A stretch of 64,000 bases of DNA, from NCBI RefSeq assembly GCF_014197445.1, contig NZ_JACIFO010000003.1, positions 62,001-126,000 on the forward strand, read 5' to 3'. This stretch comes from Mesonia hippocampi. Its GTDB lineage: Bacteria > Bacteroidota > Bacteroidia > Flavobacteriales > Flavobacteriaceae. Under the pieces are notes generated by a model, which was given only the letters and a program-made list of their open reading frames with translations, did not search any database and was not told the origin of the DNA. Below, piece by piece: positions 1 to 8,321 of this stretch; the stretch's first letter is position 1; each line of letters opens with the position of its first letter. Position numbers and translations under genes: made by a program.

Positions 1-1
1 T

Positions 2-301
2 CGTTTTTTAGATTCACTGAAACAAATTTTCCAAAGACATGGATATTTGGATACCGAAAAAGACCTTAATACAGGCTTAAGTTCAAGACAACTTCGCAGA
101 ATTTTCAATTTTTATATTGGAACTACAGCAAAATCGTTTAGTAATGTTGTACGCTTTCAGCATATTTTAAATGCAAAACCTTCAATACAAAGTTTAAAAG
201 AAAACAAACTATATTTTGATGTTGGATTTTTTGACCAAGCCCATTTTATTAAAAACTTCAAAACATTTTATGGTGTAACACCTTCAGAAGCCTTCCGTTA
301 A
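2..301 (+). CDS. AraC-family transcriptional regulator, C-terminal part (5' end outside window)
   Basis: The open frame runs from the window edge without a stop, so only the C-terminal ~99 residues are visible. They contain the second half of an AraC/XylS DNA-binding domain: the LSSRQLRRIFNFYIG helix-turn-helix, then the FFDQAHFIKNFKTFYGVTPSEAFR signature that closes the family domain. The sensor domain and gene start lie upstream of the window. The secreted VOC protein starts 68 bases downstream on the same strand, so the two may form a regulator-target pair; this is inferred from position only. A TTG at 47 is not the start, because the reading frame and the family homology extend upstream of it. 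Confidence 0.85.
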   Translation, partial: RFLDSLKQIFQRHGYLDTEKDLNTGLSSRQLRRIFNFYIGTTAKSFSNVVRFQHILNAKPSIQSLKENKLYFDVGFFDQAHFIKNFKTFYGVTPSEAFR

Positions 302-369
302 GATTGTCCGATTTTTACAATGCCTCGGTTTCTTGCCAATCTATATTTGTAACAACAAAATTATTGGCA

Positions 370-819
370 ATGAAAACATTATTATTAACCGTATTTGTCC
401 TAATGGTAGGTTATACAAATGCACAAACAACAAACAAGATGAAGCTTAACGCAGGAATAATTACCGAAAAACTACAGGAAACCAAGAAATTCTACACAGA
501 AGTTTTGGGCTTTGGGGTAAGTTTTGAAAACGAGTTCTATTTATTACTTCATACACCTAATCAATCGGAAGAAATCAGTTTTTTAAAACCAAATCACCCT
601 AGCCAAAAGCCAATTTTTCAATCGGCATTCAACGGAAAAGGTGTTTATTTAACAATTGAAGTTGAAAATGTAGATAAAGTTTATAAAGAGCTTAAAGAGA
701 AAGGAATTCTAATGGAAATTGAAATAAGAGATGAGCCTTGGGGTGATAGACATTTCGCAATTAAAGACCCTAATGGAGTTGGAATTGATATCGTTACTTA
801 TACAAAACCCGAAAAATAA
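370..819 (+). CDS. Secreted VOC (glyoxalase/bleomycin resistance-like) family protein
   Basis: A 149-residue protein. I chose the ATG at 370 because it begins a good signal peptide (MKTLLLTVFVLMVGYTNAQ, likely cut after AQ); an upstream in-frame TTG at 304 would add residues without signal character. From about residue 25 it is a single vicinal-oxygen-chelate module, with NAGIITEKLQETKKFYTEVLGF at the front and a second half ending in HFAIKDPNGVGIDIV, typical of glyoxalase-like proteins. Substrate unknown. Many relatives start at the internal MKLNAG, so a cytoplasmic form from a later start is possible. It follows an AraC-type regulator and ends at a strong terminator shared with the convergent erm gene. 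Confidence 0.75.
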   Translation: MKTLLLTVFVLMVGYTNAQTTNKMKLNAGIITEKLQETKKFYTEVLGFGVSFENEFYLLLHTPNQSEEISFLKPNHPSQKPIFQSAFNGKGVYLTIEVENVDKVYKELKEKGILMEIEIRDEPWGDRHFAIKDPNGVGIDIVTYTKPEK

Positions 820-904
820 AATAATAGAAGGAAGTTTTTCGTATATAAATTAATACTCATGAAAATTACTTGACAAAAAGATTTCCATTATATTGTTTTA
901 AACA

Positions 905-951
905 AAAACTCAATTATCGGAAACGCAAATAATTTCCAATAATTGAGTTTT
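905..951. terminator. Bidirectional intrinsic terminator between VOC gene and erm
   Basis: Long inverted repeat: the arm at 905-923 (AAAACTCAATTATCGGAAA) pairs with 933-951, with one mismatch and a 9-base loop. A-runs and T-runs flank the two sides, so it can stop transcripts from both convergent genes. Confidence 0.85.
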
Positions 952-973
952 CTTAATAAAGATTTGTTCGAAA

Positions 974-1777
974 CTAGTTTTTAGGATGATATTTTTCAGG
1001 AACAACTTCGAGCATTTCAAGAAAGCAATTCACCCATTGGGGTGTTTCTAAACAGACTATTTCTGCATTTAAATCTATATTAAATTTCTCTGCAAGCTCC
1101 CTGACTTGATTTTTCCTGAATACTTTTTTTAAGGCAGTACGGGTTGGCAAGTGAGGCCGCTTAAGCATATATGAAATAAAACACAGGTACTTTTCCTTAT
1201 AATTGACATCAAACGCTGGTTGCTTTTTGGTTATTTTCAACAACACTGATTTAACTGTGGGAGGAGGCAAAAAACTTTCCGGACTTATTTCATACATAAT
1301 TCTTAAATCGAAAAATGTATGATAAAATATCACGAAAGGATTATAGACCTTCTTTGTAAAGAGTTTTCTTGCAGGTTCTAACTGAAGTATTATAGCACCT
1401 TCCTGAAAAAACGCTGCATTTTTAAACATCAGAATTTTAAATATGTCGGATGTAATTCCAAAAGGTATATTTGAAACAACTTTAAATGGAATCTTAGGAA
1501 CTATATACTTCCTGAAATCTTCTCTGACAATGTGAATATTCTTATTTTCTATGAACCTTTTTCTTAAGTGTTTATATAATTTATAATCGTTTTCGACGGC
1601 TATAACTTTATTGCTGCTTTTTACTAAATGAACCGTAATAAATCCTTTTCCTGCACCTATATCAATAATGGTATCATTTGGGTTTATTTGTATTTGTGAA
1701 ATAGTATCTGTAATCAGGTGCTTATCAATCGTAAAATGTTGACCTGTATAGCGAACAGGTCGTTTCTTTTTTGGCAT
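974..1777 (-). CDS. erm: Erm(F)-like 23S rRNA (adenine-N6)-methyltransferase
   Basis: A 267-residue SAM-dependent methyltransferase of the KsgA/Erm superfamily. Visible motifs: GQHFTIDK near the N-terminus, the SAM-binding loop DIGAGKG at 39-45, the acidic VEND at 61-64, and the catalytic NIPF at 103-106. The tracts FKVVSNIPFGITSDIFKILM, PESFLPPPTVKS and the C-terminal NCFLEMLEVVPEKYHP match, from memory, the Bacteroides macrolide resistance methylase Erm(F) far better than housekeeping KsgA. Erm enzymes methylate A2058 of 23S rRNA and give macrolide-lincosamide-streptogramin B resistance. No mobile element is visible next to it, so the gene looks resident. A long structured leader precedes it (see 1725-2015), suggesting inducible expression. 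Divergence from Erm(F) suggests a distinct class; resistance itself is inferred. Confidence 0.9.
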   Translation of the reverse strand: MPKKKRPVRYTGQHFTIDKHLITDTISQIQINPNDTIIDIGAGKGFITVHLVKSSNKVIAVENDYKLYKHLRKRFIENKNIHIVREDFRKYIVPKIPFKVVSNIPFGITSDIFKILMFKNAAFFQEGAIILQLEPARKLFTKKVYNPFVIFYHTFFDLRIMYEISPESFLPPPTVKSVLLKITKKQPAFDVNYKEKYLCFISYMLKRPHLPTRTALKKVFRKNQVRELAEKFNIDLNAEIVCLETPQWVNCFLEMLEVVPEKYHPKN

Positions 1778-1850
1778 TAATTTGTTCGTGAAGGTTAAAC
1801 TGGATTTCTAAGTATGAAAAAGTAAATAGGCTGTAATACCTAAACAGCAT
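1725..1850 (-). CDS. Possible leader peptide ORF overlapping the start of erm
   Basis: An ATG at 1850 on the minus strand opens a 41-codon frame (begins MLFRYYSLFTFSYLEI) ending in TGA at 1725-1727. It overlaps the first ~53 bases of erm out of frame. Inducible erm genes are classically preceded by short ORFs at which a drug-stalled ribosome refolds the leader. Here the position fits, but no known arrest motif (such as IFVI or RLR) is present, and an overlapping leader ORF is atypical. Treat as a hypothesis. Confidence 0.25.
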   Translation of the reverse strand: MLFRYYSLFTFSYLEIQFNLHEQINAKKETTCSLYRSTFYD

Positions 1851-1947
1851 AACTCTCCAGTAACCTTAAGAAAAGGCTAAAGTATAAACAGTATTAAACT
1901 ATACTGATAGAAGAATGATTGAAAACTGTACGGAATTGCCTATTACT
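1791..1947 (-). promoter_or_regulatory. Structured 5' leader of erm (candidate attenuator)
   Basis: Read on the minus strand, three pairings are possible. AGTAATAGGC (1938-1947) pairs with GCCTATTTACT (1821-1831) with one bulge. CAGTAT/ATACTG forms a 6-bp hairpin at 1889-1906. AAGGTTA (1861-1867) pairs with TAACCTT (1791-1797), the latter lying 14-20 bases before the erm ATG. A T-rich run follows the first stem. Such alternative pairing is what an attenuator needs; the function is inferred. Confidence 0.4.
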
Positions 1948-2007
1948 TAGCTGAAATTCCTTAACCTACAAAAACAAGCCATAAAAATGATTATAATTAT
2001 TTTGTAA

Positions 2008-2015
2008 CAAACTTA
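2008..2015 (-). promoter_or_regulatory. Putative erm promoter, -7 element
   Basis: TAAGTTTG on the minus strand fits the Bacteroidota -7 consensus TAnnTTTG. The predicted transcript start near 2001 leaves a leader of about 220 bases before erm. Apart from the leader structures listed here, I see no gene in 1851-2069. Confidence 0.5.
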
Positions 2016-2069
2016 TTAATATTCCGCAAAAAACACAAGAACAGCTTCTTGACCTTCATTGTTTTATGG

Positions 2070-2717
2070 TTACATTAGGACTTCATGAACCGATTTATCA
2101 TTATATAAACCCCAAAATGTATTTGCAATTTTGTCAGGATGATGGAGTGATGAGTCTTCGCTAATTCTATGGTTTATCATCAGCAACGCAATAAATATGT
2201 TTTTTGACTTTAAACTATTTTCGAGACAGTTTACCATCGACCTTAAAGCTGCACTTGTCATAGATAAAGAAGCATAAGCAGGCTTTGGGGATAGTGCTAT
2301 TCCTCCTCCCGTTACCAAAATCGTACCTTTAGTTTCGGTTAAATTCTTCAATAGCCTTTTTACAAGCAACTGCAATCCTATTACATTAGCATGATAATCA
2401 AGTTGTAAATCACCTGAAGCCTCCTCTAAAATATCCTTTTGTACAATACGAGCAACATTATACAGAAGTACATCTATTTTATGGTTTTTTGAAATTATAT
2501 CAAGCGTTTGGTTTAAGTTGGTTTCGTCAGAAACATCAGCAACATAGGTTGCCACATCATCACCATACTTTAATAATTCCCCTTTAAGGATATTAAGATT
2601 ATCTTGATTTCTGCTTAACAGCAAAACTTTAAAACCTTCATTAATAAACTTTTTAGCTGCTGCAAAACCTACCCTTGATCCTGCTCCTACAATTAACAAT
2701 ACTTTTTTCCTCCTCAT
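2070..2717 (-). CDS. Divergent short-chain dehydrogenase/reductase (SDR) lacking the catalytic lysine
   Basis: A 215-residue Rossmann-fold protein. The nucleotide-binding loop GAGSRVG is at 11-17, an SRN follows the second strand at 35-37, and DVS at 61-63 and an N at 111 occupy normal SDR places. The active-site motif that should read YxxxK reads Y148-A-S-L-S152, and the preceding serine region is TGGG instead of xSS. The reductase activity is therefore doubtful; it may be a binding protein or a divergent SDR branch. It lies 3 bases after the SnoaL-like gene on the same strand, so both are probably transcribed together and controlled by the divergent Crp/Fnr regulator. Substrate unknown. Confidence 0.75.
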   Translation of the reverse strand: MRRKKVLLIVGAGSRVGFAAAKKFINEGFKVLLLSRNQDNLNILKGELLKYGDDVATYVADVSDETNLNQTLDIISKNHKIDVLLYNVARIVQKDILEEASGDLQLDYHANVIGLQLLVKRLLKNLTETKGTILVTGGGIALSPKPAYASLSMTSAALRSMVNCLENSLKSKNIFIALLMINHRISEDSSLHHPDKIANTFWGLYNDKSVHEVLM

Positions 2718-2720
2718 TTA

Positions 2721-3239
2721 CTACAATCTGGTATTTTGGGTTGTCCTGATTAACCATTTTCCTTCCTTTTTAATAAGTAACATTGTTAATATACCTTTTC
2801 GATTTTCTATTCTCTTTGGGGTTTTAAAATCGGGCCAAAACCAAATAGCATGAACAACAGCAGTAGTAGAATCAATAAGCTCAATTTTTTCAAGACTTAA
2901 TTTGTATGTCATATTTTGCCCTTGTTGCTTCAACATGTTATGGGCTTTTTGGTGTTCAGCTATATTAACCGCATTCGATTTAAACCAAGTTCCGGACCAG
3001 GTAATAAAATCGGTATCCTCTGTAAAAAGGTTTCCCCAAGATTGTATTTCGTGTTTATTCCATAAATCAACATAGTCTTGAAAAGTTTTGTTGATTAATT
3101 CTCTGTCATTTGAATGCATCATATTTGTTTTCATATAGTTATAAGGTGTTTTTTTAACAGGCACAGCCATACTAACTGAAGTCAAAAAGGTTGAAAATAG
3201 AAAGAAGGCTAAAAATGTATACTTCGTGATATTCATCAT
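2721..3239 (-). CDS. Secreted SnoaL-like / DUF4440-type protein
   Basis: A 172-residue protein with an N-terminal signal peptide (hydrophobic YTFLAFFLFSTFLTSVSMA). The mature part is an NTF2-like fold of the SnoaL/DUF4440 group: a front helix INKTFQDYVDLWNKHEIQSWGNLFTEDTDFI with the typical W..LFTEDxD motif, and a closing strand GKWLIRTTQNTRL. Such domains bind small molecules or act as isomerases, and the specific role is unknown. The first gene of a two-gene unit with the SDR downstream. Start at the first of two adjacent ATG codons; the second would serve equally. Confidence 0.7.
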   Translation of the reverse strand: MMNITKYTFLAFFLFSTFLTSVSMAVPVKKTPYNYMKTNMMHSNDRELINKTFQDYVDLWNKHEIQSWGNLFTEDTDFITWSGTWFKSNAVNIAEHQKAHNMLKQQGQNMTYKLSLEKIELIDSTTAVVHAIWFWPDFKTPKRIENRKGILTMLLIKKEGKWLIRTTQNTRL

Positions 3240-3278
3240 GATAGATTTTAAATTTATGTTTTGATGTATTACTCAAAG

Positions 3279-3306
3279 CAAAATTAATTTCCATACACTC
3301 AACAAA
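3279..3306 (-). promoter_or_regulatory. Promoter of the SnoaL-SDR unit
   Basis: Minus strand: TTTG (3303-3306), 16-base spacer, TAATTTTG (3279-3286), matching the Bacteroidota -33/-7 pattern. The Crp-like palindrome sits directly upstream, centred about 43 bases before the predicted start, a class II activator position. Confidence 0.5.
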
Positions 3307-3307
3307 A

Positions 3308-3323
3308 CGTGATTCAAATCACA
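3308..3323. promoter_or_regulatory. Crp/Fnr-type operator in a divergent intergenic region
   Basis: A perfect palindrome GTGA-TTCAAA-TCAC at 3309-3322 with a 6-base spacer, the architecture of the CRP consensus. It lies between the SnoaL-SDR unit and a Crp/Fnr-family regulator gene, and just upstream of the minus-strand promoter. Binding by the neighbouring regulator is inferred. Confidence 0.55.
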
Positions 3324-3397
3324 AAACGCTATTTAAAAGTTTTTCCTGTTTTATTATCTTTATGATTTAGAAAATCTACTCCAATTTTTCACCAAAA

Positions 3398-3991
3398 ATG
3401 AATGACGCACTGACAATCAAAAACTTTCACGAACAACTTGCCATCAAATTCCCCTATGTTGAAGAACAGAGCTGGAACAAGCTTCAAAATATTTCTATGG
3501 TTCAAAAACTCAATAAAAATGAATTGTTATGCAAAGAGGGACAGAAATTAAATCATGGGATTTTTGTGGTTAGTGGGCAATTAAAACTATTCTACCTTAA
3601 TGAATCAGGAATCGAAAGAATTGCCAGTTTTTGTACCAGAAATGATTATATAGATAATTGGAATGATGTACACCAGCACACAGCCTTGCCTTACTCCATT
3701 TGTGCTATCTCCACCACAACCATTGTAAAGTATCCTTTAAAAGAAATGGTTTCTATTTTTAAGCAAAATCCGGACTTATTACAGCTATGCATAGATCTAT
3801 CGCAAGAAATTATAGGTAAAAAACAAGACCATTATCAAATACTAACACTCAAAACCCCAAAAGACCGCTATCTATGGTTACAAAAAAACAGACCTCAGTG
3901 GCTCCAGGATATCACCTTAACGGAACTATCTAAATATCTACATGTAAGTAGAGAAACGTTAAGTAGGGTAAGGAGTAAACTGCTTCGATAA
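3398..3991 (+). CDS. Crp/Fnr-family transcriptional regulator
   Basis: A 197-residue regulator with an N-terminal cyclic-nucleotide-binding-like beta-roll (LNKNELLCKEGQKLNHGIFVVSGQL, residues ~38-63) and a C-terminal winged helix-turn-helix (ITLTELSKYLHVSRETLSRVRSKL). The four-cysteine Fe-S arrangement of true FNR is missing, and the arginine-rich phosphate-binding cassette of CRP is not recognisable, so the ligand is unknown. It is transcribed divergently from the SnoaL-SDR pair, with a CRP-like palindrome between them, so it probably controls those genes and perhaps itself. A possible own promoter element, TATCTTTA, is at 3355-3362. Confidence 0.85.
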   Translation: MNDALTIKNFHEQLAIKFPYVEEQSWNKLQNISMVQKLNKNELLCKEGQKLNHGIFVVSGQLKLFYLNESGIERIASFCTRNDYIDNWNDVHQHTALPYSICAISTTTIVKYPLKEMVSIFKQNPDLLQLCIDLSQEIIGKKQDHYQILTLKTPKDRYLWLQKNRPQWLQDITLTELSKYLHVSRETLSRVRSKLLR

Positions 3992-4184
3992 ACAATCAAC
4001 AAGAGTTTTCTTATAAAAGTTTTAAAAGTTAAAAACCTACTTATTAACTAAAAAGACATTTGTTATCTTATTGGATTTACTTTTTATTTATGGGAACGAA
4101 AAATTGCTGTATTTAATGATACCTGTAAAAGCTTAATTCAGCTAGTTGAGGAGGTATAGTATCTAAAAATGTAACAAAAAAAAA

Positions 4185-4219
4185 CTAGTCCTAAAGCGGA
4201 TAAATGCATTTAGGACTAG
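4185..4219 (-). terminator. Intrinsic terminator after the DoxX gene
   Basis: Perfect 11-bp stem CTAGTCCTAAA (4185-4195) / TTTAGGACTAG (4209-4219), followed on the minus strand by a run of about nine T. The 3992-4184 stretch before it, after the plus-strand regulator, shows no gene I can support. Confidence 0.85.
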
Positions 4220-4231
4220 GTGTATTATTTT

Positions 4232-4624
4232 TTATTTTCGCAGGTAATCTATCGAGTATTTTCCTGGTCCTAATAATAGAATTCCTAAATATCCTATCAA
4301 GTATAGAAGTGGCAATTCCTGACCGCTTAAACCATCGTTTAAATGTACGATAAACACAATAACTAGCATGGTAATAATTAAAGGAATACTTGCTAAACGT
4401 GTTGCCAAGCCTAAAACAAGTAAGCCTGCACAAACTACTTCCGAGAAAATAGTTAATATTAAACTGGGTACTGCTCCTACTCCTAAAGGATCTGGAAAAC
4501 TAACCTCTTGAGCCGTTAATAGGTTTTGCAACTTAGGAATCCCGTGTGTTAACATAAGTCCACCAAAAAACAACCTAAAAAGCAATGCTGTAATGTGTGG
4601 AAAAACTCTATTTATTTTTGCCAT
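4232..4624 (-). CDS. DoxX family inner-membrane protein
   Basis: A 130-residue protein with four hydrophobic segments (about 10-30, 51-75, 78-95 and 103-122). The first helix carries the DoxX family features RLFFGGLMLTHGIPKL and the last runs into GPGKYSIDYLRK. DoxX proteins are small four-helix membrane proteins linked to thiosulfate or thiol redox processes in some bacteria; the function here is unknown. It is the last gene of a four-gene unit (Crp/Fnr regulator, YiiX-like hydrolase, lipoprotein, DoxX) and lies 2 bases after the lipoprotein stop. Confidence 0.8.
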   Translation of the reverse strand: MAKINRVFPHITALLFRLFFGGLMLTHGIPKLQNLLTAQEVSFPDPLGVGAVPSLILTIFSEVVCAGLLVLGLATRLASIPLIITMLVIVFIVHLNDGLSGQELPLLYLIGYLGILLLGPGKYSIDYLRK

Positions 4625-4626
4625 TA

Positions 4627-5064
4627 TTATTTCTTAAGAAGTTCTTGAGCATTTTTAATACTGCTATTAATAGCATTCTTCATCTCTTCAGCTTTTTCTG
4701 CTTGTTCTTTTAATAAAGGAAGTTTTTCTTTATAAACATCATCACTTAAAACCTCTTTAGATAGTGCATTAGGGAACTCATTAGAGAAATCTTTCATCCA
4801 ATTCATCATTAAATGGTGAGCTTCTTCTAGTTTCCCAATGGCTTCTTGGTAACGCTCTTGATTAGCTGTTATGGTATCGGTTGCTGCTTTTTTCTTTATA
4901 TCTTCTCGCAACATTCCTAAAGTTCCCATTTTTGGCATTACGGCATCGTGTGCGGCCAATGCTTCTTTCATGGTTTCGTTATAATCTGTTGCTAATTTAT
5001 TTTCTTGTTTACATGCTGTAAACCCTAACAGTACAATCCCAATGGCAATAATTATTTTTTTCAT
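4627..5064 (-). CDS. Small helical lipoprotein
   Basis: A 145-residue lipoprotein: signal peptide MKKIIIAIGIVLLGFTAC with the lipobox cysteine at 18, then an almost wholly charged, helical mature part rich in E, K and A with heptad-like spacing (LPLLKEQAEKAEEMKNAINSSIKNAQELLKK). Relatives in flavobacteria are often labelled viral A-type inclusion protein, which says nothing about function. It sits between a YiiX-like hydrolase and DoxX, so an envelope role is likely. I cannot name a function. Confidence 0.7.
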   Translation of the reverse strand: MKKIIIAIGIVLLGFTACKQENKLATDYNETMKEALAAHDAVMPKMGTLGMLREDIKKKAATDTITANQERYQEAIGKLEEAHHLMMNWMKDFSNEFPNALSKEVLSDDVYKEKLPLLKEQAEKAEEMKNAINSSIKNAQELLKK

Positions 5065-5085
5065 CTTATTTTATTTAAAAGGTTT

Positions 5086-5736
5086 CTATTCTATATACAA
5101 CGTAGGCTGTAAAGCTCCTACATATTCCAGTTTTTCTGAAGCTGCCATTCCGTTTGGATTACAGCCCAATTTACCTTCTGGTATAGGCAAATTTAACGCA
5201 TTATAATACTCTACCCAAGATTGATGATAAACATTTGTACCAGGATTTTTAAACGTCATGGGGTTTAATTCAAATATTTCTGCTTCATTGAAGCTTCGGT
5301 AGATAAAATCTGAGCAGTAATAACTTGTATCGTTTAAAATATAGCTATGGTTATATGGTTTTCCCAACATGGCTGTGGCTTGCTTAATTGCCTGTGGTAT
5401 GCTATACTGAAATTCGTCTTTTAACCGATAAACCTGTAATGCCCGAGGCTTTTTTAGGCTGTCTGTTTGTGATAAGATAAATGATTTTAGACTTAATTTT
5501 TCTGAACCATTATTAAAACCTGCATGCAATACATACCAGGTTTCATCTGTTTTTTCCAGAATCCCCATGTGGGAGTAATTTTTTGTTTCTTGGTGTTGGG
5601 TTACTTTATTTATTGCTTCCGAGAGCCCTTCTGTATAACTTTCACAGAAAATAATATCGCCTTCTTTTAAGTTTACCGTTTGTGCTAAACTAACTTGAAA
5701 CAATATTAAGGTTAGGATAAGGAATGTATTTTTCAT
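5086..5736 (-). CDS. Secreted YiiX/YebB-like NlpC/P60-type cysteine hydrolase
   Basis: A 216-residue protein with a signal peptide (MKNTFLILTLILFQVSLAQ). The mature part matches the permuted NlpC/P60 (papain-like) fold of the YiiX group: GDIIFCES near 26-33, a catalytic histidine in YSHMGIL (H56), and the nucleophile in YYCSDFIYRSF (C141) after GKPYN. In the permuted family the histidine comes before the cysteine, as here. Substrates are amide or thioester bonds in peptides or lipids, not known for this subgroup. Sits 2 bases after a Crp/Fnr regulator in the same unit. Confidence 0.8.
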   Translation of the reverse strand: MKNTFLILTLILFQVSLAQTVNLKEGDIIFCESYTEGLSEAINKVTQHQETKNYSHMGILEKTDETWYVLHAGFNNGSEKLSLKSFILSQTDSLKKPRALQVYRLKDEFQYSIPQAIKQATAMLGKPYNHSYILNDTSYYCSDFIYRSFNEAEIFELNPMTFKNPGTNVYHQSWVEYYNALNLPIPEGKLGCNPNGMAASEKLEYVGALQPTLYIE

Positions 5737-5738
5737 TT

Positions 5739-6374
5739 CTAATCTAAATTTAACACTTCTATGGCGTTACGATTTAGTTTTATTTTATGCAATTTTTCTA
5801 ACTTTTTCAGCAAGCGTGAAATCACCACCCTAGAGGTGTGTAAATCGTATGCTATTTCTTGATGCGTTGTGGTTAAACTTGCAGAGTTACTTACTCTTAC
5901 TTTTTCTTTTAAATAACTTATTAGCCTATCGTCCATCTGCTGAAAAGCAATAGTATCTATGGTTTCTAATAGTTCGTTTACACGTTCGTGGTAGCTTTGA
6001 AAAACAAAATCTCTCCATGTTTTGTATTTAGAAGTCCATTCCTCCATTTTTTGTACAGGAAACGTAATTAATAAGGTATCTGTTTCGGCAATGGCTCGTA
6101 TTTTACTTTTATGATGCCCCAAGCAACAACTCATGGTTACCGAACAGGTTTCTCCTTTTTCTAAAAAATATAAAAAAAGCTCATCGCCTTGATTGTCTTC
6201 TCGCAAAACTTTTATAGCTCCGTTTATCAATAACGGGATAAATTTCACGTACGAGCCAACATCTATAATCTGTTCGTCTTTTTTGACCTCTTTAAGCGTG
6301 CCTATTTCTAGCATTTCTTGGAGTAATTCTTTCTCAAAAATATGCTGATAGCTTTCTAGAAAAGCAGTTTCCAT
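5739..6374 (-). CDS. Crp/Fnr-family regulator with a cysteine-histidine-rich sensor loop
   Basis: A 211-residue regulator: beta-roll effector domain (KKDEQIIDVGSYVKFIPLLINGAIKVLRE, ~31-59) and winged helix-turn-helix (TTHQEIAYDLHTSRVVISRLLKKLEKLHKIKLNRN). The loop at 75-90 reads GETCSVTMSCCLGHHKS, with C77, C83, C84, H87 and H88, instead of a cyclic nucleotide pocket. As far as I recall, related Bacteroidota regulators share this cysteine pattern, which suggests a metal, redox or sulfur sensor; that is inference. It is the first gene of the unit with the YiiX hydrolase, lipoprotein and DoxX, so it probably regulates them. Confidence 0.85.
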   Translation of the reverse strand: METAFLESYQHIFEKELLQEMLEIGTLKEVKKDEQIIDVGSYVKFIPLLINGAIKVLREDNQGDELFLYFLEKGETCSVTMSCCLGHHKSKIRAIAETDTLLITFPVQKMEEWTSKYKTWRDFVFQSYHERVNELLETIDTIAFQQMDDRLISYLKEKVRVSNSASLTTTHQEIAYDLHTSRVVISRLLKKLEKLHKIKLNRNAIEVLNLD

Positions 6375-6434
6375 AACTAAAATTTAAGTTCTAAAAATAC
6401 ACATTTTTATGTGATTTCTAGCTGCTATTAAAAA

Positions 6435-6461
6435 ATACCTGTTAGACTAAAAAACAGGTAT
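6435..6461 (-). terminator. Intrinsic terminator after the 6472-7589 gene pair
   Basis: Stem ATACCTGTT (6435-6443) / AACAGGTAT (6453-6461), with a T-run on the minus-strand 3' side. It separates this gene pair from the Crp-YiiX-DoxX unit. Confidence 0.75.
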
Positions 6462-6471
6462 GTCTTGTTAT

Positions 6472-7089
6472 TTATTTTAATTCAAACAACTCCATGTGTA
6501 CAACGCAGCCTTTATTTAAATCATAGATAAATTTACCAACAACAGCATACGAATTATCTATAATTTCCCATTGTGAATGCCCCAATTTGCGTGTTTTAAT
6601 CAACGAAGTAGCAATGTTGGCTTTGGTAGTGTATACCGCCAATTCGGCTGCGCCTTTTTCTCGGGAATAGTAAATGGTTTTTAACGAGGAGATTTCTATC
6701 ATAGGGTCAATCCAAAGCAGTTGAGATAAAGGCACGTTTTCTTTTAAATCAAAATCTTTTAGGTTGTTGTTTATCTCGCTTACGTCAACTTTTTTATATT
6801 TTGTGGTATCAAACCTAAAATCGGGATTGTCTTTATAACTCGCTAAAATCTTTTCGCGGTGTTTTTTGATGTTAGCTTTATTTTTAGCAGTAAAATTATC
6901 TATGTATATTATTAAGCTATCTCTTTTATTAAAATCTAGCTTATAAACTTTCTCATCTTCATATTGTTCTAACACCATGTTTAAGCTAAAACGAAAGTTT
7001 TTTAACTCTCTTTCAAAACTATCTTCTTGTGCATTACTGTAAAGAAAAGAGAACAGGGATATTATAATAACGATGTTTATATTTTTCAT
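6472..7089 (-). CDS. Secreted protein of unknown function
   Basis: A 205-residue protein with a clear signal peptide (MKNINIVIIISLFSFLYSNAQ). The mature part is a charged N-terminal helical stretch (YEDEKVYKLDFNKRDSLIIYIDNFTAKNKANIKKHREKIL), then a beta-rich half with IYYSREKGAAELAVYTTKANIATSLIKTRKLGHSQWEIIDN. No motif I recognise. Its start overlaps the end of the DinB-like gene by four bases, so the two are co-transcribed, with the DinB-like gene first. Confidence 0.6.
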   Translation of the reverse strand: MKNINIVIIISLFSFLYSNAQEDSFERELKNFRFSLNMVLEQYEDEKVYKLDFNKRDSLIIYIDNFTAKNKANIKKHREKILASYKDNPDFRFDTTKYKKVDVSEINNNLKDFDLKENVPLSQLLWIDPMIEISSLKTIYYSREKGAAELAVYTTKANIATSLIKTRKLGHSQWEIIDNSYAVVGKFIYDLNKGCVVHMELFELK

Positions 7090-7589
7090 TGGTTATTTGG
7101 GCTATGGTTAATTTTAAATTTCTCTATTTGTCTGCGGTGTCTTAGTATATGTACAATTGCATGCTCAAATAATTGTTCTACATCATAACATTGTCCCCAC
7201 CTAACTTTAATCTTTTTATCGGGATTATTTTCGCATAATTCAAGGTTTGGATAATCTATAAACAGTTTTTCATTAAATGCAAACATTTCTTGTAATGCCC
7301 ATTTATATTCATTAGCTGTTAAGAGCTTTTTTTTATTCTTATAGTCTATTTTTTCACCCAACCATCTTCTAACTTCTATCGCATAGGTATAACCACTTTG
7401 CACAACATGGGTTAGTATGTTTTGGATAGATTTACAATCTTCATCATTCGTATTGATATCTCTAATTTCAACAAACTTATGCGGAGGAATATCACTAATG
7501 GTTTCTATAAGTTCCTTTATTGATTTTTCATACTCATCAAGCAAAGCCCCTATTGCGCCATTGTTTCTAAAATTCTTGTTTGGTTGCAT
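7086..7589 (-). CDS. DinB-like four-helix protein
   Basis: A 167-residue cytoplasmic protein with the DinB/YfiT layout: a first helix after the N-terminus (GALLDEYEKSIKELIETISDIP), a histidine in the second helix (SIQNILTHVVQSGYTYAIEVRRWLGE) and a closing helix with EHAIVHILRHRRQIEKF. The histidines in LTHVV, EHAIVH and LRHRR are where this superfamily places its metal ligands. Some members are bacillithiol-linked or metal-dependent thiol transferases, but the role is unknown here. Overlaps the following secreted-protein gene by four bases. Confidence 0.7.
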   Translation of the reverse strand: MQPNKNFRNNGAIGALLDEYEKSIKELIETISDIPPHKFVEIRDINTNDEDCKSIQNILTHVVQSGYTYAIEVRRWLGEKIDYKNKKKLLTANEYKWALQEMFAFNEKLFIDYPNLELCENNPDKKIKVRWGQCYDVEQLFEHAIVHILRHRRQIEKFKINHSPNNQ

Positions 7590-7645
7590 TATTTACTTTA
7601 GGGTTAACGTTTTATTTTCTAGTTAGTTTATAATGGCTCTCCTCT

Positions 7646-8074
7646 TTATATTCCTAATGTTATCTCGTGCTTTACTTTATGATATCTTAAAGCTGCTTTT
7701 ATACATTCTTTTAATTCCAACACTGGAATTTCTTGATTTATTTCAAAAACAATTGCCCGATTTCCTTCAAACTGAAGTGTATTACTAAACAGCCTCTTAA
7801 AGGTTGTTACCAACCTGCTTGTGCATTGAAAATATAAAGCATATTGATTGGGACTTTTCTCTTTCCAATCCATTCGTAAAGTACTTCCGTGTTTGGTTAC
7901 AAAACTAGGCTCTCCCCATTTAAGCGTTTCTGTTAGCCTAGTAACTTCTTCGGTTTCCCGGGCTGTTTCTATGACTAATTTGCGCAGGGAATCCATTTTT
8001 TCTTTTACAAAATCTGGGTATTTTGTAAAAACTGTTTCTACATTAGGATCTGTAATTACTTCTAGATTATTCAT
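7646..8074 (-). CDS. DUF1801 (YdhG-like) domain protein
   Basis: A 142-residue protein matching the DUF1801 family: VFTKYPDFVKEKMDSLRKLV at the front, the signature TETLKWGEPSFVTKHGSTLRMDWKEKSPNQYALYFQC in the middle and a helical end (LELKECIKAALRYHKVKH). The family has a small alpha/beta fold of unknown biochemical function. Stands alone between the DinB-like pair and the tRNA-Arg gene. A tandem 11-bp repeat lies just upstream of it (8122-8143). Confidence 0.75.
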   Translation of the reverse strand: MNNLEVITDPNVETVFTKYPDFVKEKMDSLRKLVIETARETEEVTRLTETLKWGEPSFVTKHGSTLRMDWKEKSPNQYALYFQCTSRLVTTFKRLFSNTLQFEGNRAIVFEINQEIPVLELKECIKAALRYHKVKHEITLGI

Positions 8075-8121
8075 TTTCCTTCTTTTTTAGCTTTATATGA
8101 AGAATACAAGGATATAGTAAA

Positions 8122-8143
8122 GATGTCGGACAAATGTCGGACA
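8122..8143. repeat. Two tandem copies of an 11-bp unit
   Basis: ATGTCGGACAA occurs twice back to back, followed by a partial third unit (ATCGG). It lies 48-69 bases upstream of the DUF1801 start, so an operator or a replication slip are both possible. Confidence 0.6.
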
Positions 8144-8207
8144 AATCGGATTAGTGGCATTTATTGAAACAATGAAACAAACAAATGATTATCAATGCAT
8201 TACAAAT

Positions 8208-8246
8208 AAAAAAGCCTCCAAAATCCAGAGATTAAGAAGGCTTTTT
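8208..8246 (-). terminator. Intrinsic terminator after tRNA-Arg
   Basis: AAAAAAGCCTCC at 8208-8219 pairs with the GAAGGCTTTTT arm at about 8236-8246. On the minus strand it follows directly after the tRNA 3' end and ends in a T-run. Confidence 0.75.
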
Positions 8247-8247
8247 G

Positions 8248-8321
8248 TGACCGCGGGAGGATTCGAACCCCCAACCCTCAGAGCCGAAATCTGATATTCT
8301 ATCCAGTTGAACTACGCGGCC
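8248..8321 (-). tRNA. tRNA-Arg (anticodon UCG)
   Basis: Minus-strand cloverleaf: acceptor GGCCGCG/CGCGGTC, anticodon stem TCAGA/TCTGA with loop TTTCGGC (anticodon TCG), and T arm GGGGGTTCGAATCCTCC. Discriminator A at 8248; the CCA is not encoded. Reads CGN arginine codons. Confidence 0.95.

Follow-up and report, generated by a model that had tools for sequence, protein, structure and literature searches.

The locus analysed here raises the question of whether an Erm(F)-like macrolide resistance gene in a flavobacterial chromosome is an old resident, and perhaps the reservoir that supplied mobile erm(F), or an acquired relative, and how such a gene would be expressed. The window, by which we mean the whole stretch of 64,000 nucleotides that was analysed, comprises bases 62,001-126,000 of a 266,966-base contig from Mesonia hippocampi, whose genome of 2.59 Mb is rated 99.53% complete. 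Taken together, the evidence makes it rather likely that the gene encodes a divergent Erm-type A2058 methyltransferase that forms its own lineage in the Erm(F) group, was probably acquired and is switched by translation attenuation.

The gene at 974-1777 (minus strand, ATG start, 267 amino acids) belongs to the erm(F)-group 23S rRNA adenine-N6 methyltransferase genes. All Erm(F) tracts that the preliminary description had read in it (GQHFTIDK, FKVVSNIPFGITSDIFKILM, PESFLPPPTVKS and NCFLEMLEVVPEKYHP) are present in the reading frame. Against the NCBIfam models the protein scores 238.7 bits on the broad Erm model NF000499 (cut-off 212), and its 398.9 bits on the Erm(F) model NF012223 (E 9e-120) fall short of the class cut-off of 575, a value that L006, 95% identical to most erm(F), exceeds with 585.4. 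The nearest relative among solved structures is ErmC', and the motifs IGAGKG and SNIPF align with its IGSGKG and GNIPY; we take the former to be the SAM-binding glycine-rich motif and the latter the N-I-P-[YF] catalytic motif. In comparison with Erm(F), synonymous differences far exceed the others (pS 0.74, pN 0.22), and hence the protein has been under purifying selection. The product is, as judged from sequence, most likely an Erm-type 23S rRNA A2058 methyltransferase, and methylation of A2058 would block binding of macrolides, lincosamides and streptogramin B. We infer catalysis and resistance, like the stalling and induction discussed below, from the sequence. In this genome the part of the 23S rRNA that contains the target base is masked. 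A KsgA/RsmA paralogue with a housekeeping role on 16S rRNA is barely conceivable: the KsgA model TIGR00755 does give 142.1 bits, but this is below its cut-off of 171 in a protein that exceeds the Erm cut-off, the tree described below puts the protein in the Erm(F) group, and the genome has another KsgA-like gene, the second best of its five RrnaAD matches (C2:240253, 27% identical to the 974-1777 protein). A PADLOC match to positions 269-450 of the 492 in mad2 (5e-21) was set aside as generic similarity of the methyltransferase fold.

The preliminary description had noted many differences from Erm(F), and the identities agree with this. Among 34 proteins over 235 amino acids (the 974-1777 protein included, shorter fragments dropped), the erm(F) copies are 89-100% identical to each other, and full-length identity of the 974-1777 protein to Erm(F) proteins is 63-65%, with none above 65%. 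The loci L089, L026, L090 and L091 reach about 65, 62, 56 and 41% identity to erm(F). In the plasmid records the best identity to our protein is 64.2%, and 14 of the 1,688 matches lie at 60-80%, the other 1,674 below; in the virus collection a relative is encoded by 3 of 21 pattern stretches, and one of the three, at 63%, is full length. A tree, which the preliminary description had proposed as a check, was built from 24 rows with three KsgA-like rows as outgroup, the genome's own KsgA not being among these, and it carries a long-branch warning for Erm(46) and L091. It places the protein inside a 12-row Erm(F) group (support 98/97) and outside the clade of erm(F) proper (100/99); the immediate neighbour is weakly supported (84/88, then 82/62). 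A recent mobile erm(F) copy was thus excluded by identity (at most 65%) and clade position, and by sequence the gene is a lineage of its own inside the Bacteroidota Erm(F) group. L053, L085 and L094 constitute a second lineage of this group, 63-70% identical to erm(F) (about 68% to most copies); since the three are 97% identical to each other across three families, that lineage is probably itself mobile.

Members of one Erm class share at least 80% amino-acid identity. The proposal that the gene defines a separate class stands insofar as no Erm(F) protein exceeds 65% identity, and by this rule a separate class is likely within a comparison set that does not include the second named class of Bacteroidetes, Erm(35) (PMC8914350). 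Lund et al. (2022, PMC8914350) describe a small Bacteroidetes erm cluster in which several new families stand beside erm(F) and erm(35). One of the new families, UGF171, lies at 59.5-64.3% to Erm(F), a range that resembles that of our gene as far as the published description goes, and gave no phenotype in E. coli; erm(F) itself has been reported as non-working in this host, with conflicting reports (PMC8914350). Unlike the Mesonia gene, UGF171 is described as having 19% of its genes near conjugation genes and as a family found in pathogens (PMC8914350). A further list of organisms with Erm includes B. coprosuis (PMC2614427).

The claim of a chromosomal location agrees with the length of the contig and with the presence of yqeY, ftsZ and ftsA (named by eye) 6.5-10.5 kb from the gene. 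Identities of the FtsA-like protein, 76% to Polaribacter, 75% to Myroides, 72% to Paenimyroides, 62% to Kaistella, 56% to Algoriphagus and 33% to Bacteroides, point to Flavobacteriaceae. Likewise, the statement that no transposon or integrase lies next to it holds for the 30 neighbouring proteins scanned with Pfam over the interval from C3:43.7 kb, which is 18 kb beyond the left end of the window, to window position 8.1 kb: 25 had a match, five had none, and none was an integrase or transposase, which led us to reject a flanking conjugative transposon. Other open reading frames were judged by eye. The absence of repeats holds within window 1-8300, where direct repeats are at most 35 nt long and none forms a flanking element pair; a gene-cassette array was rejected, as the repeats show no recurrent recombination-site-like element. 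A tandem 11-mer, ATGTCGGACAA, occurs in 2.2 copies at 8123-8146.

The gene is held in a block of about 15 kb bounded by oppositely facing tRNA-Arg genes at C3:54800 and C3:70247, with VOC, RibD_C, AHSA1, CMD, DUF1801, cNMP-binding, DoxX and SDR genes among others. We do not claim a tRNA-bounded integrative island, because the two tRNA genes point in opposite directions and there was no integrase among the proteins scanned. To the left of erm, a VOC/glyoxalase-fold protein is encoded at 304-819 on the plus strand together with a preceding AraC-type gene, a pair (to window 836) that is also found in the congener G010, elsewhere and with different genes after it. Between the convergent VOC and erm genes, the repeat search identified a 19-nt inverted repeat (905-951, 95%), probably a terminator common to both. 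To the right a short-chain dehydrogenase recognised by Pfam is encoded at 2070-2717 (minus strand), and the right border of the accessory block is tRNA-Arg(tcg) at 8247-8321 (minus strand), beside yqeY and ftsZ, again named by eye. A tRNA-Arg(tcg) gene was found in all 15 stretches around the congeners' yqeY (L112-L126), and tRNA-Arg(tcg)-yqeY-ftsZ is core. In G006, the core genes of the left side (an exchanger gene and, as named by eye, genes like glnN and purM) are also near yqeY, with different genes intervening. A single block protein, encoded at 4627-5064, is related to one encoded in the yqeY stretches of the congeners (32-33%, L117-L119). On the Flagellimonas plasmid L144, erm(F) lies between a dihydrofolate-reductase-family gene and a gene for a XerA-type integrase (986-1525 and 2940-3758); RibD_C genes occur in the block around our gene too.

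These comparisons do not bear out the description of the gene as resident. Only one of the 16 genus genomes, this one, has the erm gene; each of the other 15 has a lone match at 25-29%, taken to be KsgA, and window 837-4366 found no DNA match in these congeners with 18 candidates scored per genome. The block genes, too, are largely without counterpart at the corresponding site. Vertical descent from an early ancestor, the gene having been lost in the congeners sampled, would fit the GC content, which is 32.0% in the gene and 31.9% in the surrounding block. This equality means that there is no foreign signature, and it also gives no date for an import. Against vertical descent, which seems rather improbable to us, stand the absence from all 15 congeners of both gene and flanking DNA and the patchy occurrence in wider samples: Erm(F)-like genes at E up to 1e-50 were found in 5 of 395 genomes for the order, 6 of 395 for the class and 7 of 395 for the phylum, samples that overlap and all include this genome. 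Across the phylum such genes occur patchily and fall into several deep lineages, in agreement with the published resistome survey (PMC8914350). The simpler reading is that the species or its recent ancestors probably acquired the gene horizontally.

The suggestion that the locus is a resident chromosomal reservoir and the source of mobile erm(F) fares worse and is very improbable. It draws on the chromosomal position, on neighbours free of mobile genes among those checked, on membership in the same group as erm(F) and on the presence of a leader. However, the family sample holds an Erm(F)-like gene in 2 of 397 genomes, the congeners carry none, and identity to erm(F) is 63-65% as compared with the 89-100% among erm(F) copies; with about 35% of residues differing, the gene lies too far from erm(F) to have been its source in recent times.

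The resemblance to erm(F) extends upstream past the start codon in the upstream alignment, into a putative attenuator leader RNA (1778-1982, minus strand, as are all its parts) that begins with a short reading frame, uORF1, and ends directly ahead of the erm start codon. uORF1 (1947-1982) begins 205 nt upstream of erm and has 11 codons for MACFCRLRNFS and the stop TAA. Its RLR codons (1959-1967) place a motif of the macrolide-arrest type ahead of erm, as is expected of an attenuator. The motifs +X(+) and +X(W) are described as sites of erythromycin-dependent arrest (PMC6238534), and RLR is the stall site of ErmDL, where it is dominant for telithromycin and dispensable for erythromycin (PMC8298421). 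Overlapping the end of uORF1 is a possible 5' hairpin, H1 (1932-1960), with the arms GGAATT (1955-1960) and AATTCC (1932-1937), the counterpart of which in erm(F) reads GGACT/AGTCC. Segment A, AAGTAATAGGC (1938-1948), overlaps the uORF1 stop codon and is complementary to segment B, GCCTATTTACTT (1820-1831), which precedes the erm start codon by 43-54 nt. The erm translation-initiation region, CCAGTTTAACCTTCACGAACAA (1782-1803), is in the predicted fold largely paired with uORF1 codons, the RLR codons included.

Leaders of this type are not confined to Mesonia. The comparison covered 40 loci that comprise an erm start and no less than 190 nt of the DNA before it, with eight others excluded; these loci are not independent of each other, and one genome may be represented more than once. 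The segment-A motif was found 60-260 nt upstream in 15 of the 40, that is in 14 of the 39 besides the window. It is missing in 21 of the 40, four of which (L085, L086, L091, L137) are not erm(F) proper. In 4 of the 40 it occurs 1.2-1.8 kb upstream of erm(F), separated from it by other DNA, and in L023 this intervening DNA holds reading frames that look transposase-like by eye; L008, L017, L023 and L025 are among the loci with a displaced or missing motif. uORFs were read in 11 of the 15 motif loci (the window and 10 of the 14 others), and the other ten leaders have RPW, RLW or KPW where the window has RLR. The erm(F) loci L139, L144, L093, L088 and L143 encode MYFSRPWTSI, L094 and L053 MYYSRPWTTI, and the uORFs of L026 and L090 end in RPWTSI and KPWLLSE, respectively. 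The window uORF1 aligns without gaps to that of L089, MFCLCRLWTSI, and the R and L codons show only synonymous differences (AGG/AGA, TTA/CTG). A second frame of 9 codons was seen 35-62 nt before erm in L089 (MLSIHFSLI), L026 (MLSYHFPVI), L090 (MLSCRRPVI) and L086 (MLFCHFSVI); it stops a short way ahead of erm and resembles part of the ErmC leader peptide. Its first codon reads ATA in erm(F), and the window is without that peptide.

Homology of the window leader with the others was examined by 16 pairwise local alignments, most of which are weak. The exceptions are a 5' block with L089 (39 of 55 positions identical, 0 of 1000 shuffles as good) and a 3' block with erm(F) (35 of 51 and 0 of 1000 shuffles for L139 and L143; 34 of 51 and 4 of 1000 for L088). 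The remaining 5' blocks were equalled by 24-43 of 1000 shuffles for erm(F), 15 for L026, 143 for L094, 196 for L053 and 984 for L090, and the 3' blocks of five other rows by 40-516 of 1000. A leader model that includes the window (R1) gave 24 matches in 49 sources, all of them erm(F)-group loci, and in the phylum sample it matched 5 of 365 genomes, where each match directly precedes an Erm(F)-group gene, with none in the other 360 under strict filters. These scores are circular, because the window is in the model and the five genome matches are model rows or near copies; the informative part is hence the absence from the other 360 genomes. With the window left out of the model (R2), a search of the whole genome up to E 10 missed the window leader, and so did a search up to E 1 of 20 loci that included the window. 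Run unfiltered on 501 bases, R2 ranked the correct place first, but with 8.1 bits and E 0.12, and the sequence-only model R3 ranked the correct place first in 84 kb with E 0.43. In the pairwise controls, L089 and erm(F) lend support to the homology of the leader, the function of which we infer.

The window leader folds with a z of -2.91, and 1 of 200 shuffles is as stable. Its lowest-energy fold contains the A:B helix, and of the 14 A:B pairs of the alignment 12 form in the window; the A:B duplex alone is unremarkable, as 41 of 1000 shuffles are as good. Over 10 leaders 94.2% of the A:B cells pair, compared with 27-49% in slid versions, and two pairs are changed on both sides, one being the window's A-U for G-C. 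Out of 500 column shuffles, 3 reached the observed percentage, 16 the number of double changes and 12 the covariation score, and 353 reached the number of pair types. H1 together with a helix near the start (3:4) pairs in 93.6% of cells and has three double changes; here 2, 6, 59 and 474 of 500 shuffles reached the percentage, the double changes, the covariation score and the pair types, respectively. Covariation support across the leaders is thus modest. In the window itself 4 of 10 H1 alignment pairs are broken, and H1 lies outside the lowest-energy fold, forcing it costing 4.2 kcal/mol; only 4 of the 9 pairs of helix 3:4 common to the others are formed, with two gaps.

Most likely, to judge by these sequence features, expression of erm is switched by macrolide-inducible translation attenuation. 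Without drug, RNA structure would sequester the erm start region, which in the predicted fold is paired with uORF1. In the presence of a macrolide, a ribosome would stall at the RLR codons of uORF1. Since uORF1 pairs with the erm start region in the predicted fold, the stalled ribosome would free that region and erm could be translated. The same enzyme might be made without drug control, the resemblance of the leaders being a remnant of a common promoter and 5' UTR and the RLR uORF fortuitous in this lineage. Such constitutive expression would accord with the weak or negative results of R2 and R3, with a start-proximal helix that is largely not kept in the window and with the region upstream of erm(F)U having been suggested as a promoter (PMC4481100). 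However, it would leave unexplained why uORF1 aligns to that of L089 without gaps and with synonymous R and L codon changes so that +X(+/W) is kept, why no shuffle in 1000 equals the window-L089 5' block or the window-erm(F) 3' block, and why the leader folds at z -2.91. We regard constitutive expression as the less likely reading.

In attenuation by a leader peptide of the ErmC and ErmD type, likewise a short uORF precedes erm and pairing involves the erm start region. With ErmDL the window uORF1 has RLR in common (PMC8298421). However, leader sequence and peptide of the window differ from those of ErmC and ErmD, the predicted fold has the erm start region paired to uORF1, and the window leader is known from sequence alone. 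uORFs and palindromes have been postulated to arise independently across the erm family (PMC11264731). The closest comparison is Erm(F) of Tn4351, CTnDOT and related elements, which has common tracts with our protein over the full-length identity given above and, in the copies that retain the leader, a layout like that of the window. Unlike in Erm(F), uORF1 of the window has RLR instead of RPW, and no mobile element was recognised beside the gene. The sequence upstream of erm(F)U is described as variable to about -262, and IS4351 sequence starts at -27 in Tn4351-type erm(F) (PMC4481100). For erm(F), we found no description of a leader peptide or attenuator in the open-access literature, as far as the texts were accessible. 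Loss of the leader in many erm(F) copies would explain why an attenuator has stayed unnoticed. We tentatively consider it possible that the Erm(F) group ancestrally has a macrolide-sensing attenuator of the +X(W)/+X(+) type that was often lost, and that the window retains an altered sensor with RLR for RPW. The RLR sensor of this lineage may differ in the macrolides or ketolides that trigger it.

The Mesonia gene would thus encode an enzyme of an ordinary kind from an unusual lineage, preceded by a leader that is plausible as a drug sensor common with erm(F), and the Bacteroidota Erm(F) group gains a deep lineage. Should the leader prove to act in the proposed way, resistance of the erm(F) type was inducible at its origin; how a common resistance gene of anaerobes and flavobacteria is regulated would then be open to direct tests, and predictions of erm(F) phenotypes should take in the 200 nt upstream as well as the gene.
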